Positions 41,885 to 62,304 of a stretch of 64,000 bases of DNA are shown here, piece by piece. Numbering within the stretch: the stretch's first letter is position 1; every line of letters begins with the position of its first letter. The notes beneath the pieces were generated by a model. That model was not told the DNA's origin and searched no databases. It was given only the letters and a program-made list of their open reading frames with translations. Source of the stretch: Rhodobacter sp. CZR27 (GTDB lineage: Bacteria; Pseudomonadota; Alphaproteobacteria; Rhodobacterales; Rhodobacteraceae); the NCBI RefSeq assembly GCF_002407205.1, contig NZ_CP023548.1, positions 1,450,501-1,514,500 of the forward strand, written 5' to 3'. Both the position numbers and the translations under genes were made by a program.

Positions 41885-42931
41885 TCACACCCCCGATCCG
41901 TCGGGCGTCGCAGGCTTCTTCGGGCGGCGAGTCCGGGGCTTGCGCGTCTTCGGCGCGGGGGTGACGGGTTCCGCAGCCTCCGTTTCGGCTTCCTGTGCCG
42001 GCTCGCCGAAGCCTTCGGGAAAGACCACCCGGAAAGGCTTGGCGGACGCCGGAGCAGCGGGTTCAGCGGCGGGCTCCGCGCCGTCATCCGGAAACACCAC
42101 CTTGAAGGACCGGGCAGAAGCCGGACCCGCGGGGTCGGCGGAGGGTCCCGCATCGTCCTGCGGAAAGTCCACCCGGAATGACGGGGCCGGGGGCCTGGAC
42201 TGCGCGAACCAGTCGTCGGCCTCCTCGCCCTCGTCCGGGAAGGTCACGACGAAGGGGGCTTTCGCAGCCGCCGCCGTCGCATCCGGGACGCCGAAGTCGG
42301 GCGATGTCCCATTGGCGCGGAGCCGCGGCGCCTCGTCATCACCCGCGTCGAGCCCGTCTTCGGCCCCCGGGGTCCCGTCGGCGCCCGGCTCCAGTTCCTC
42401 GGCGATGCCCGCCATCAGCAGCCGCGCCGCATCCTCGAGCGTGACCGAGAGCGCCGCGCCCTTCGGGAAGTGGCCGGGCCCGCGGGGGCCGTCCTCGGTC
42501 AGCCTGACGCGGGTCCAGCCACCCTCCGCGGGAACCGCCGGCTCCGGTTCGGGCGAAGGGGCGGGGGCGGGCGTGGGCGCCGGTGCCTCGGGGACATCGA
42601 ACTCATCGAGCAGCGACATCATCGCGGAAAGATCCAGCGTCGGGATCACCAGCGGCTTCGGCGGCGGAGGAGGCGGGGGCGGCGGCGGCTCTGGCGCGGC
42701 CTCGACCACGGGCGGCGCGATGGGCAGGGGCGGCAGGACCTTCGCCCCGCGCAGGAGCGCCACCCGCGCCGCCAGGATCGCGCGCCGGGCGGCACCCGCG
42801 GCAGCCTCGGAATGCATCCGCTCCAGACAGGCAAGGGCGGTTGGCAGGTCGACTGCAGCAAGGGCCTCGAGAACGGCGCGGGCGGCCGCGTCGATGCGGG
42901 GATCGCGGGCAAGCTCCGGCGGGACGGTCAT
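41885..42931 (-). CDS. Proline-rich repeat protein of unknown function, divergent from flgB
   Basis: A 348-residue protein that I do not recognise. Residues 1-65 are a compact helical region. Residues 66-135 are very Pro-rich, with ten consecutive prolines at 82-91. About 138-180 has a short ordered part. Residues 226-309 contain four copies of an FxVxFP motif ([28 protein letters not shown]), spaced 24-25 residues by Ala/Asp/Pro linkers. The tail 328-340 is strongly basic. There is no signal peptide or membrane segment. It has a GAGGAG ribosome site and a sigma-54 promoter shared face-to-face with flgB, so it is probably a flagellar regulon member. FliK was considered, but no FliK C-terminal domain is visible. 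Confidence 0.75.
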
Positions 42932-42956
42932 GGGTTTCTCCTCGCAAGGCCGGCAT

Positions 42957-42974
42957 TTGGCATCCTCCTTGCAA
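42957..42974 (+). promoter_or_regulatory. Sigma-54 promoter of the flgB operon
   Basis: TTGGCATCCTCCTTGCAA has GG (42959-42960) and GC (42971-42972) with exactly 10 bp between them. The start would be near 42984, leaving a 37-base leader with the GGAGGG of flgB. The -12 hexamer TTGCAA is palindromic and is also used by the opposing promoter. Confidence 0.85.
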
Positions 42975-42985
42975 GTCCCGGTCCA
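42969..42985 (-). promoter_or_regulatory. Divergent sigma-54 promoter of the proline-rich gene
   Basis: On the minus strand TGGACCGGGACTTGCAA matches 14 of 17 bases of the flgG promoter below and has the exact GG-N10-GC spacing. Its -12 element is the same TTGCAA (42969-42974) used by flgB in the other direction. The start would be near 42959, 28 bases before the gene. Confidence 0.7.
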
Positions 42986-43020
42986 GATGCCGCCGCGGGT
43001 GGCGGGGAACGGAGGGCAAG

Positions 43021-43413
43021 GTGACGGTTTCGGGCTTGCGCGACCAGCTGGGGCTGCACGCGGATGCGCTCATCCTGCGCGAGACGCGGGGCAACCTGCT
43101 GACCTCGAACATCGCCAATGCGGCGACGCCGCACTACAAGGCGCGCGACCTCGATTTCGAGGCCGAGATGGCGCGGGCGGCCGGCAACGCCAGCCTGCGC
43201 ACCAGCGACTCGCGCCATCTGGCGATGGGCGGGCCAGCTGCGTCCGGCGAGGCGCTCTATCGCGATCCGGTGACGCCTTCGCTTGACGGCAACACGGTCG
43301 AGATGGCCGTGGAACAGATGGAATTCTCCGAGAACACGCTGCGCTACCAGACCAGCCTCGCGCTGCTGAACCGCCGCATCTCGGGGCTGATGACGGCGAT
43401 CAAGGGGGAATGA
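43021..43413 (+). CDS. flgB: Flagellar basal-body rod protein FlgB
   Basis: A 130-residue proximal rod protein. The N-terminal rod motif ([22 protein letters not shown]) and the C-terminal helix ([20 protein letters not shown]) pack with other rod proteins. The start is GTG at 43021, preceded by GGAGGG; no in-frame ATG fits the family. It opens the flg operon and overlaps flgC. Confidence 0.93.
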
Positions 43414-46573: not shown

Positions 46574-46590
46574 TGGCACGGGCCTTGCAA
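46574..46590 (+). promoter_or_regulatory. Sigma-54 promoter of flgG
   Basis: TGGCACGGGCCTTGCAA is an essentially perfect consensus (TGGCAC-N5-TTGCA), with GG and GC 10 bp apart. The start would be near 46600, 24 bases before flgG, with AAGGAG in the leader. It lies in the 58-bp gap after flgF, so flgG onward can be transcribed separately from flgB-F. Confidence 0.88.
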
Positions 46591-46623: not shown

Positions 46624-47412
46624 ATGTCCACCAACGCGATGCATGTCGCCCAGACCGGTCTGAACGCCCAGCAGACCCGGATGCAGGTGATCTCGAACAA
46701 CCTTGCCAACGTCAACACCACGGGCTTCAAGCGCGACCGCGCGAATTTCGAGAGCCTGCTCTACCAGACCTGGAAACCGGCCGGCGCGCAGACGTCCGAA
46801 GGCACGGCGATGACCTCGCCCTCGGCGGTCGGTACCGGGGTGCGCGTGGTCTCGACCGAGAAGCTCTATACGCAGGGCTCGCTCACCAACACGAATAACG
46901 CGCTCGACCTCGCCATCGACGGCCCCGGCTTCTTCGAGGTGCTGATGCCCGACGGCCGCATGGGTTATACCCGCAACGGCACCTTCTCGCAGAATGCCGA
47001 AGGCACGATCACCACGCCCTCGGGCTATGTCGTCCAGCCCGAGATCCAGATCCCCGAGGGCGCCGTCTCGGTGACCATCTCGGCCGACGGGATCGTCTCG
47101 GTGCTGATGCCCGACGAGACCGAGGCGCAGGAGGTGGGCCAGATCACCATCGCCACCTTCGCCAACCCGCGCGGCCTGCAGCCCGTGGGCGAGACCTTCG
47201 CGGTCGAGACCGCGGCCTCGGGCGAGGCGGTGATCGGCAACCCGGTGGAGCCGGGCTTCGGCAAGCTGGTGCAGGGCTCGCTCGAATCCTCGAACGTCAA
47301 CGTGGTGCAGGAACTCGTGGACATGATCGAGACCCAGCGCGCCTACGAGGTGAATTCCAAGTCCATCTCGGCCTCGGACGAGATGATGCAGTTCCTTGCC
47401 AACAAGCTCTGA
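46624..47412 (+). CDS. flgG: Flagellar distal rod protein FlgG
   Basis: A 262-residue distal rod subunit. It has MHVAQTGLNAQQTRMQVISN and NLANVNTTGFKRDRANFE at the N-terminus, then LDLAIDGPGFFEVLMPDG, and NVVQELVDMIETQRAYEVNSK at the C-terminus. The ATG has AAGGAG upstream, and a strong sigma-54 promoter precedes the gene. Confidence 0.95.
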   Translation: MSTNAMHVAQTGLNAQQTRMQVISNNLANVNTTGFKRDRANFESLLYQTWKPAGAQTSEGTAMTSPSAVGTGVRVVSTEKLYTQGSLTNTNNALDLAIDGPGFFEVLMPDGRMGYTRNGTFSQNAEGTITTPSGYVVQPEIQIPEGAVSVTISADGIVSVLMPDETEAQEVGQITIATFANPRGLQPVGETFAVETAASGEAVIGNPVEPGFGKLVQGSLESSNVNVVQELVDMIETQRAYEVNSKSISASDEMMQFLANKL

Positions 47413-55061: not shown

Positions 55062-55076
55062 TGGCACGGGCCTTGC
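55062..55076 (+). promoter_or_regulatory. Sigma-54 site immediately before sltF
   Basis: TGGCACGGGCCTTGC is identical to the flgG promoter over 15 bases, with the exact GG-N10-GC spacing. The predicted start is near 55088, one base before the sltF ATG (55089), so the GGAGGAGGG ribosome-binding site would not be in the transcript. Confidence 0.75.
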
Positions 55077-55088
55077 CCGGAGGAGGGC

Positions 55089-55868
55089 ATGAGGCTGGTG
55101 CTGTCGCTTTTTCTCCTTCTCCTGCTGGGCACGCCCGCGCTGCGCGCCGCGGAAAGCTGTGAGCAGCTCGCCGCCGCTGCTGGGGCCGAGGCGGGCATCC
55201 CCGAGGGCCTCATGCCCGCGATCGCGCGCGTGGAATCGGGCCGCAGCGGCGGCGCCTGGCCCTGGACGCTGAACCAGGGCGGAAAGGGGATGTATTTCGA
55301 GACCCGGGACGAGGCGCTGGCGATGCTGCGCTCGGTCGTGGCTTCGGGCGTCACCAACATCGATGTCGGCTGCATGCAGCTGAACTGGCGCTGGCATTCG
55401 CCAGCCTTCGGCTCGGCCGAAGAGATGATCGACCCCTTGCGCAACACGCGCCATGCCGCGCGTTTCCTCGTGGAACTGCGCCAGCGCCTCGGCTCGTGGG
55501 AGGCGGCGACCGCGGCCTATCACTCGTCCGACCGGAGCCGCGGCACGGCCTATCTTGCCAAGGTCGAGGCGGCCCGCGGCGGTGTCCAGCTGGCCGATGC
55601 CGGCGGGCCGCTGCCCGACGAGGCGACCATGGCCGCCGCGCGGGTGCAGGGGCTTCTGGTCCTTGCGCCGCAGCCGATGGTGGCGCTGGGGGATGGCATG
55701 GCGGCCTTCGGCCTGCCCGAGGCCGCCGCGGCCATCCCGTCCCGCCTGCCCGCCCGCCTGCCGCAGGGCGCGACGGGCCTTCTGGCCGAGGCCGACCTGC
55801 CGCCCCGGCTGCGGGCGCGGTGGACGAGCATCGAGTCCTTCCGCGCAGTGCTTGCCGAACAGCCCTGA
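55089..55868 (+). CDS. sltF: Flagellar soluble lytic transglycosylase SltF
   Basis: A 259-residue periplasmic lytic transglycosylase. The signal peptide covers residues 1-20. The SLT fold shows the catalytic glutamate E49 in ARVESGRSGG, the GCMQLNWRWH motif and AAYHSSD. It opens the peptidoglycan for the rod and complements the short FlgJ. A Pro/Ala-rich C-terminal region (after about 170) follows the catalytic domain. The ribosome site GGAGGAGGG is strong, but it lies upstream of the start predicted for the sigma-54 site. Confidence 0.88.
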   Translation: MRLVLSLFLLLLLGTPALRAAESCEQLAAAAGAEAGIPEGLMPAIARVESGRSGGAWPWTLNQGGKGMYFETRDEALAMLRSVVASGVTNIDVGCMQLNWRWHSPAFGSAEEMIDPLRNTRHAARFLVELRQRLGSWEAATAAYHSSDRSRGTAYLAKVEAARGGVQLADAGGPLPDEATMAAARVQGLLVLAPQPMVALGDGMAAFGLPEAAAAIPSRLPARLPQGATGLLAEADLPPRLRARWTSIESFRAVLAEQP

Positions 55869-56018
55869 GAACGAAACCTCTCCTAATGGATGGGACGGGC
55901 CTCCCTATTGTGTAAGACTGACTTTTTGGTCGGGTGAAAGCGCCAATGGCTCTGTTTACGCGACGTCGACATATACGCGATTTTAACCTTGTTTTCCGAA
56001 GGATGGCGATCGCGCAAG

Positions 56019-57119
56019 ATGACCAGTCACTTCTCGCCCGAGGGCGCAGTTTCCCGCCCGTTGCCCCCGCCGGCCGGCCTGATCGACCGTGTCATCCCGG
56101 GCGAGTCCCTGCCGATCCGGCGGGTGAAGGCCCTGATCGCGGCGGTCGCCGTCAGCGACGCGCCGGTCCTCGTCCACGGGTCCACGGGAACCGGCAAGGA
56201 ACTGGCGGCCGAGGCGCTGCATCGCGCCTCGGGGCGTCAGGGGCCGCTGGTGGCGGTCAACTGCGCGGCGATTCCGGCGGAACTTCTCGAGTCGGAACTG
56301 TTCGGTCACGAGAAAGGCGCCTTCACCGGCGCGGACCGCCAGCGGATCGGCCGGATCGAGATGGCCAGCGGCGGTACGCTGTTCCTCGACGAGATCGGCG
56401 ACATGCCGCTTGCCCTGCAGGCGAAGCTTCTGCGCGTTCTGGAAAGCCGGCGCATCTCGCGCGTGGGGGGCAGCGCCGAGATCGAGGTGGACTTCCGCCT
56501 CGTCACCGCGACGCACCGCGACCTTGCGCGGCAGGTGGCCGCCGGCGGCTTCCGCACCGACCTCTTCTACCGGATCAACGTCTTCCCGCTGACCCTGCCC
56601 GACCTGCGCGAGCGGACCTCGGACATTCCGCTGATCCTTGCCCGCATGATCGACGATCATCAGGCGCGCAACCCGGCCTCGGACGTGCCGCATTTCGACG
56701 CCGGCGCGCTGCGGGCGCTGTCGGCGCATGATTGGCCCGGTAACGTGCGCGAGCTGCGCAACGTGCTGGCCCGCGCCTTCGTGCTGTTTCCCGGCCGGAT
56801 GGTCACCGCACGCCACGTGCGCGAGAACCTTCTGCAACTGGCCATGCCCGACCCGGAGGGCGAGGGCAACCTGCCGCCGCCGCCATCGCCCGCAACACAG
56901 GGCCTGCCCGAGCCGCAGCACTTCCAGCAGGCGCTGTCCAGCCGGTCCGACCTCGACCTGCGCGGCTACCTGCGCGACATCGAGGTGGCGCTGATCGAGG
57001 CCGCGCTTGCGCAGCGCGATGGTTGCGTGACCCGCGCAGCCGATGCCCTGAGGCTGCGGCGCACCACCCTGATCGAGAAGATGAAGAAGTTCGGCATCCT
57101 GCGCGGCGCCGAGGCCTGA
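56019..57119 (+). CDS. Sigma-54 enhancer-binding protein lacking a receiver domain (FleQ/FleT type)
   Basis: A 366-residue NtrC-class activator. The AAA+ domain starts almost at the N-terminus. Walker A is GSTGTGKE (54-61), the sigma-54 contact loop GAFTGA (100-105) is intact, and Walker B is LFLDEI (121-126), with R-finger region and sensor II further on. A Fis-type helix-turn-helix ends the protein ([23 protein letters not shown]). The N-terminal receiver domain is absent. In R. sphaeroides the flagellar activators FleQ and FleT work as a hetero-oligomer with RpoN2; which one this is cannot be decided here. The ATG at 56019 is chosen; a TTG at 55989 is an alternative. Upstream 55891-55906 has a weak relative of the sigma-54 site. 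Confidence 0.82.
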
Positions 57120-60939: not shown

Positions 60940-60978
60940 GGCCAGTTTGGGGGCAAGGACAGCAGGAAGGCGTTGACG

Positions 60979-62304
60979 ATGCAGCTTTACACCGCCCAGA
61001 GCTTCGCACAGCGCCAGTCGCTCGTGGTGACGGCGCAGTTGCAACAGGCGATCTGCCTGCTTCAGATGCCCAATGCGGAACTCTCGTCCTTCATCGAGGC
61101 CCAGGCCGAGGAAAACCCGTTCGTCGAGCTGCGCCTGCCTCCGGCGCCCGCGCCGTCCGTGGCCTTGCCCCGCACGGCCGCGGCGGTGGGCGACGACTGG
61201 GACCGGATCGCGGGCCTCGCGGCCGATCCGGGGCCGTCGCTCTATGTCCATGTCGGCGCCGAGATCGCGCGCCTTGGCCTGACGCCGGCCGAAGCCGCGT
61301 CCGCCGGGGTCTTTCTCGACGCGCTCGAACCCTGGGGATGGCTCGGCCAGCCGCTGGACGTGCTGGCACTGCGCGCGGGGCTGTCGGAGGCCGAGGCCGA
61401 GGCGCTGCTGGCACGGCTGCAGGGGATCGAGCCCCGCGGCCTGTTCGCGCGGTCTCTGGCCGAGTGCCTGCGGCTGCAGGCCGAGGATCAGGGGCTGCTC
61501 ACGCCGCTCTTCTCGGCCGTGCTCGGGCATCTGCCGCTGCTCGCTGCCGCGGATCTGCGCGGCATCTGCCGTGCCTGCGGCTGCGGGATGGAGGAACTGA
61601 AGCTCGTCCTGCGCCAGCTGCGCGGGCTGAACCCGAAGCCCGGCGCGCTGTTCGATGCCGCGCCGTCGCCGCAGCGGCCGCCGGACCTGGTGGTCAGCCG
61701 CAGCGCCGAGGGCTGGCGCGTCGACCTGAACCGGTCCACCCTTCCGTCCGTGGTGGTGCGTGACGATGCCGCCGAGGGCTTCGCGCGCCGCGCCGCGCCC
61801 TATGTCGGCGAGCGGCTTTCGGTGGCTCGCTGGCTGGCCCGCGCGGTCGAGCACCGCAACCAGACCACGCTGAAGGTCGGCGCCGAGGTGGTGCGGCGCC
61901 AGAAGGGTTTCCTCGACGAGGGCCTGTCGAAGATGCAGCCGATGACGCTGCGCGAGGTGGCCGATGCCATCGGCGTGCACGAAAGCACGGTGAGCCGCGT
62001 CACCTCGGGGCTGATGATCGCCACGCCGCAGGGCACCTTTCCCCTGAAGTCGTTTTTCACGGCTGCGCTGGCCAGCCGCGAGGGGGACACCTCCGGCTCG
62101 GCCGCGGCAGTCCGGCACCGCATCCAGAAGCTGGTTCAGGCCGAGTCCCCCGACGACCCGCTGAGCGATGATGCCATCGCCCGGATCATCTCGGACGAGG
62201 GGGTGACGCTGGCCCGTCGAACGGTTGCCAAGTATCGCGAGCAGCTGAACATCCCGTCCTCGGTCCAGCGCCGCAGGCAGGCGCTGGTGACCGGCGCACT
62301 CTGA
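60979..62304 (+). CDS. rpoN2: RNA polymerase sigma-54 factor (flagellar RpoN2)
   Basis: A 441-residue sigma-54. Region I is Gln/Leu-rich (LVVTAQLQQAICLLQMPNAEL), and residues about 45-65 are acidic/Pro-rich region II. The core-binding and helix-turn-helix part reads TLREVADAIGVHESTVSRV. The RpoN box ARRTVAKYRE lies at 412-421, intact. Its place between fliC and motF matches the R. sphaeroides Fla1 cluster, where RpoN2 serves flagellar genes specifically. The ATG at 60979 is chosen; a TTG two codons upstream is possible. Confidence 0.92.
   Translation: MQLYTAQSFAQRQSLVVTAQLQQAICLLQMPNAELSSFIEAQAEENPFVELRLPPAPAPSVALPRTAAAVGDDWDRIAGLAADPGPSLYVHVGAEIARLGLTPAEAASAGVFLDALEPWGWLGQPLDVLALRAGLSEAEAEALLARLQGIEPRGLFARSLAECLRLQAEDQGLLTPLFSAVLGHLPLLAAADLRGICRACGCGMEELKLVLRQLRGLNPKPGALFDAAPSPQRPPDLVVSRSAEGWRVDLNRSTLPSVVVRDDAAEGFARRAAPYVGERLSVARWLARAVEHRNQTTLKVGAEVVRRQKGFLDEGLSKMQPMTLREVADAIGVHESTVSRVTSGLMIATPQGTFPLKSFFTAALASREGDTSGSAAAVRHRIQKLVQAESPDDPLSDDAIARIISDEGVTLARRTVAKYREQLNIPSSVQRRRQALVTGAL

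Follow-up and report, generated by a model that had tools for sequence, protein, structure and literature searches.

A candidate bidirectional sigma-54 promoter built on a palindromic -12 element between flgB and a conserved divergent gene

Sigma-54 promoters follow the consensus TGGCACG-N4-TTGCW, and transcription starts about 12 bp past the GC. Lutz 1990 reportedly described divergent NtrA (sigma-54) promoters in the E. coli hydrogenase-3 cluster; to our knowledge, these have no common -12 element. In another system, attributed to Johansson 2008, E-sigma-54 is said to act on a divergent, non-overlapping sigma-70 promoter. More recently, bidirectional sigma-70 promoters have been reported in which a symmetric -10 is common to both strands (PMC12825309, 2026). 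In that account, competition matters once transcription is raised, not at a low basal level; the terms sigma54 and RpoN do not occur in it. In R. sphaeroides, divergent promoters of the fla2 flagellar set, flgB2 included, are reported to be controlled by CtrA (PMC6180460). A survey of titles and abstracts in the open literature, together with passages of PMC4591121, PMC3844500 and PMC12316311, yielded no description of sigma-54 promoters with a common -12; three central studies of R. sphaeroides (Ballado 2001, Pena-Sanchez 2009, Poggio 2006) lie outside that scope.

The present study concerns a site upstream of flgB in a 64-kb stretch of DNA from Rhodobacter sp. CZR27 (the window; Table 1). 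The letters at the site are TTGG (42957-42960), TTGCAA (42969-42974) and CCA (42983-42985). The spacing GG-N10-GC is exact on both strands with the same GC (42971-42972) used by each, and both promoters match the consensus at 10 of 12 positions. It had been predicted from the letters alone that two sigma-54-type promoters stand face to face here on one palindromic TTGCAA, and the sequence bears this out. On the minus strand, GG-N10-GC stands within a TGG and TTGC context, as in a sigma-54 promoter, and a single symmetric core element (TTGCAA) is positioned for either orientation, as in a bidirectional one. A sigma-70 bidirectional promoter was considered and rejected, as what the two GG-N10-GC boxes have in common is TTGCAA and not a TATAAT-like -10. 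From the predicted starts, the leaders would be about 37 nt to the flgB GTG at 43021 and about 28 nt to the divergent ATG at 42931. Since each predicted start falls in the -24 of the other promoter, simultaneous binding of both holoenzymes is likely impossible.

Table 1. Features of the flgB locus and its surroundings (window coordinates)
Feature	Position	Strand	Basis or remark
Divergent gene, 348 aa, uncharacterised, AGGAG before ATG	41885..42931	-	Open frame; likely RSP_0084 counterpart by tag order
flgB sigma-54 promoter TTGGCATCCTCCTTGCAA	42957..42974	+	-24 GG 42959-42960, -12 GC 42971-42972
Divergent sigma-54-type promoter TGGACCGGGACTTGCAA (predicted)	42969..42985	-	-24 GG = plus 42983-42984
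Palindromic -12 element TTGCAA, common to both promoters	42969..42974	no strand	Sequence and conservation
Predicted minus-strand start	42959	-	Inferred from geometry; inside the -24 of the flgB promoter
Predicted plus-strand start	42984	+	Inferred from geometry, ~12 bp past GC
flgB, GTG start, first flg operon gene	43021..43413	+	TIGR01396, 104.1 bits, cut-off 59.05
Open frame with sigma-54 activator (AAA+) domain, FleQ/FleT-type candidate	55989..57119	+	PF00158, C1:1506600-1507091 = window 56100-56591
rpoN (sigma-54), flagellar rpoN2 by position	60973..62304	+	One of four genome copies

The arrangement resembles the hydrogenase-3 case in having two sigma-54 promoters with divergent genes of related function. 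With the Johansson 2008 system it would have in common divergent-promoter cross-talk through bound E-sigma-54, but that system reportedly involves two sigma classes and no overlap. It is like the sigma-70 bidirectional promoters in that a single core element is symmetric, opposed polymerases would exclude each other and the starts diverge; it differs from them in its use of sigma-54, a -12 element and an obligate activator, in its conservation at one gene pair, and in the distance between starts, which is predicted to be about 25 bp here and is most often 18 bp there (PMC12825309). Relative to that case, what is new is in all probability a bidirectional promoter built on a sigma-54 -12 element. 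The fla2 promoters likewise serve divergent flagellar genes in the same kind of bacterium, but they are CtrA-dependent rather than sigma-54-dependent and belong to a different flagellar set (PMC6180460).

The surrounding cluster resembles the fla1 (Cereibacter-type) cluster of R. sphaeroides, whose genes are expressed by RpoN2 with FleQ and FleQ/FleT (PMC7277832; PMC11999139). For the early fla1 genes, PMC6180460 gives RpoN1 whereas the other two reports give RpoN2, and the latter two were followed. FlgK, FliD, flagellin and sigma-54 were identified by Pfam and FlgB by family models; flgC to flgH were assigned from gene order and a reading of the translations.

A palindromic -12 provides half of a reverse promoter free of cost, and the remaining GG might have arisen by accident. 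Single sites are indeed frequent in this G+C-rich window, where nine reach at least 10/12 with GG and GC intact; 60 simulated windows (first-order Markov) held 5.9 on average (sd 2.3), so single 10/12 sites barely exceed chance. The pair, in contrast, does exceed it: only one pair with a common -12 occurs in the window, and none in any of the 60 simulations. In the organism's own genome (4.44 Mb, 4 contigs), GG-N8-TTGCAA-N8-CC is found at two places. The longer TGG-N8-TTGCAA-N8-CCA occurs once in 4.4 Mb, at this site; the second place of the shorter pattern is without the flanking T and A. The simulations, the conservation across 22 genera against matched controls and the clustering of pattern matches at flgB, both described below, led us to reject an accidental origin, which we hold to be extremely improbable.

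A search of 394 family genomes for FlgB homologues (E 1e-15) gave matches in 23, and three further genomes of the genus brought the sample to 27 loci; with one row kept for the genus, 23 loci from 22 genera remained, one bin having two. A forward promoter of the form TGGCA...TTGCA lies upstream of flgB at 27/27 loci, as found with a regular expression that demands TGGCA and that no row failed. TTGCAA together with the mirrored CC is present at 17 of the 23 loci, and the mirrored CC, with or without TTGCAA, at 18, against about 6% at other columns. Within the genus, the minus-strand GG is kept in 5/5 genomes. Loss of this GG in relatives had been named beforehand as a result that would refute the arrangement; the comparison instead found it conserved, in the genus as well as at 17 of the 23 loci from 22 genera. 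Downstream of the -12, the conserved columns are CG and CCA (TGG..CG on the other strand), at 0.9 to 1.6 bits, while the columns between or beside them do not rise above about 0.6 bits. The conserved reverse positions (TGG, CG) are those of a -24 element at N10 from the GC. One 2.2-Mb bin (G308), possibly a mixed one, carries two different FlgB loci on contigs C70 and C87 (L038, L047), with the pair at both.

As controls, 43 further sigma-54-like sites, lying up to about 20 kb from flgB, were taken from the same genomes (40 stretches plus the window, some stretches being short at contig ends) by the regular expression TGGCA[CT], five bases, [CT]TGC[AT], so that not all need be real promoters. 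Among these 43, the mirrored pair occurs at none, the mirrored CC at one, the CG at one and TTGCAA at eight. For the pair, 17/23 flgB loci against 0/43 controls gives a Fisher value of 4e-11, and we rejected the idea that sigma-54 sites near flgB carry it in general. A tree of FlgB (27 rows, mostly weak forks) required five state changes, a number equally low in 211 of 500 shuffles; thus, it gives neither clustering nor direction of change.

Conservation of the mirrored letters might also be explained if only the flgB promoter works, the CG..CCA serving the flgB start region or a dimeric-regulator operator and the divergent gene having another promoter. The CCA does lie at the predicted flgB start. 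Furthermore, in Cereibacter the dyad extends outward as GGCAT(C/T)TGG ... CCAGAT(G/A)CC (GGCATCTGG/CCAGATGCC; window 42950-42995; L015-L018), which may represent either a site for a regulator or an extension confined to the genus. A good reverse site is also absent at 5 of the 23 loci (L031, L033, L035, L037, L044), where the divergent gene is still present; the reverse promoter is thus dispensable or replaceable. Against these points, the other sigma-54-like sites near flgB are without the mirrored element, and the longer Cereibacter dyad has no matching conserved columns outside the genus in the 27-locus alignment. Moreover, L029 carries a complete reverse promoter (TGGTCCGATCCTTGCA) that is shifted by 12 bp, so that the -12 is no longer common, and yet GG-N10-GC is intact. 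Taken together, we consider it quite unlikely that the flgB promoter is the only one at work. The separated promoters of L029/L054 (G031) lend themselves to comparison, in a natural setting, with the overlapping arrangement.

At the 17 paired loci, the two -24 elements differ in which letters they keep. The forward element has C and A at positions 4-5 in 17/17 (the expression used to find rows demands both, and no row was lost) and G at position 7 in only one, against 29 of the 43 controls (p 2e-5). In the reverse element, C at position 6 is found in 16/17 and G at position 7 in 15/17, but C at position 4 in 4/17 and A at position 5 in 2/17; it therefore departs from the consensus at position 4 in 13 and at position 5 in 15 loci, which counts against it as a promoter element. 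From these counts, each promoter carries one half of the -24 consensus, TGGCA in the forward and TGG..CG in the reverse direction, a division that may reflect a balance between the two promoters. Forward consensus scores at the paired loci differ from those of the 43 other sites (p 0.0006). A weaker forward promoter specific to the paired loci was considered and rejected, as the scores showed no difference from those of the six unpaired loci (p 0.13).

The pattern YTGGCAYNNNNYTTGCAANNNNCGNNCCA was found in 72 stretches of the genome collection. In 56 of these it lies directly upstream of FlgB, the FlgB match starting 43-153 bp past the pattern start; these 56 (50 distinct 40-base cores) partly overlap the genomes of the FlgB homology search and are not an independent sample. 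A recognisable divergent homologue is present at 43 of the 56, and at 52 the distance from the common GC to the divergent ATG is 33-48 nt, which is plausible for a start codon. Their record titles are mainly Rhodobacterales, with SAR116 and a Rhodospirillaceae bin also represented; further bin labels (Pelagibacterales, Sphingomonadales, Arcticimaribacter, Verrucomicrobiales) may in some cases be binning errors. The other 16 matches lie away from flgB, 14 of them inside an open frame of more than 150 codons (a weak criterion); on a reading of the letters, two of the 16 seem to precede other genes, one being a glutamine synthetase-like start (L140) and the other L132. At the level of the order, the pattern without its leading Y was found in 8 of 292 genomes (reversed control 0), at FlgB in seven and elsewhere in L095. 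Across the 26 genomes whose locus is known, a looser symmetric pattern was seen at 26 places (flgB in 21 cases, other sites in 5), against 4 for its reversed control. In the phylum, TGGC-N7-TTGCAA-N7-GCCA occurs in 22 of 398 genomes versus 2 for a reversed control that contains another hexamer and is a poor yardstick. This difference suggests that symmetry of this kind is not confined to flgB, and it counts against an flgB-only reading. Five of the 22 genomes belong to one genus with similar letters (L175-L179), and other two-way sigma-54 sites may exist among the 22.

The divergent frame starts at 26 of the 27 loci, the exception being L016, where the stored contig ends too soon. A leave-one-out profile, with near kin also excluded, recognises the partner in 25 of 26 (E 5e-7 or better), and the best controls reach 7 bits; the one missed is the partner at L043, which scores E 0.78 against the profile of the rest. 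By these sequence comparisons, the partners form one fast-evolving family. Their layout is a helical N-terminal part followed by a variable linker, often proline- or acid-rich, and many have a short C-terminal domain near DUF7302/DUF7210. One relative matches DUF7302 just above the cut-off (26.1 vs 24.9 bits) and another matches DUF7210 below it; the window protein itself matches nothing in Pfam or NCBIfam. For a homologue, the structure model has low confidence (mean pLDDT 62.9). The description of the divergent gene as proline-rich suits Cereibacter and some other versions but does not extend to the family as a whole. A search of the named genomes with the divergent protein found no relative, and a plasmid search gave nothing. 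Partner length varies widely, from 145-220 residues in other genera to 1271 in L030 and more than 816 in L028.

In R. sphaeroides, flgB is RSP_0083 and flgC is RSP_0082, so by tag order RSP_0084 should be the divergent gene; one report lists RSP0032-RSP0084 as the flagellar set that is functional (PMC3024229). In Table 1 of PMC9779115, UdsC overexpression raises flgB (log2FC +4.65) and RSP_0084 (+2.86), the latter among the 50 genes in the table most raised, and UdsC deletion lowers both (-2.19 and -1.81). Since the two rise and fall together, their expression looks coordinate, with RSP_0084 equated with the divergent gene by tag order only. This gives no support to the original prediction that one DNA-bound sigma-54 chooses between the flg operon and the divergent gene, and the notion of a choice is better replaced by a milder one, in which expression is coordinated and only the single starts are exclusive. 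A stricter version, in which the same pair forms a reciprocal switch and each gene, when transcribed, shuts off the other in an ordered or bistable manner, would draw on the exclusion expected from the geometry and on the observation that sigma-70 bidirectional promoters, when strongly activated, can repress the RNA made in the opposite direction (PMC12825309). However, the parallel changes of flgB and RSP_0084 speak against such a switch, which we regard as unlikely, with the reservation that they come from population RNA-seq and are compatible with exclusion in single cells.

A bidirectional sigma-54 promoter that co-expresses both genes, with one holoenzyme bound at a time, is thus the reading we hold with considerable confidence. 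Its retention in many alphaproteobacteria looks, from the sequences compared, like a deliberate link of two genes and not a coincidence. In this proposal, TTGCAA would act as the -12 for both of the opposed promoters, whose separate -24 elements lie 10 bp away, and E-sigma-54 (RpoN2) would sit in either orientation, never in both. Upon activation by FleQ/FleT, presumed to act alike on both orientations, the holoenzyme would leave in its own direction, on the minus strand as on the plus strand, and the site would be free for a new draw. The common sigma factor, activator and -12 would switch both genes on together, whereas single initiation events would exclude each other, and the unequal -24 halves would set the ratio of outputs. 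A waiting sigma-54 closed complex is further predicted to make occupancy, and hence competition, matter more.

We also lean, by a little, towards a broader claim, namely that this is the first described bidirectional sigma-54 promoter, with a palindromic -12 and a divided -24, kept at flgB and its partner far beyond one genus (labels Rhodobacterales, SAR116 and others), and that it serves as a partitioning device, the poised closed complex being committed to one or the other flagellar transcript ahead of any action by the activator. The sigma-54 closed complex is stable and awaits its ATPase, so the timing of the orientation choice is directly testable. If true, the locus would provide a natural example of two genes that are activated together and yet exclude each other at single initiation events, and a conserved uncharacterised family (RSP_0084-like) would become tied to the flg operon.

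Two other matches were seen on the plus strand of the window. At 46574-46589, a 12/12 sigma-54 match (TGGCACGGGCCTTGCA) lies in the gap ahead of a frame at 46624 that is flgG by position, which suggests, on these letters, that this frame may have its own promoter. At 55062-55077, an 11/12 sigma-54 match lies just before the frame at 55089, which encodes a transglycosylase SLT domain.
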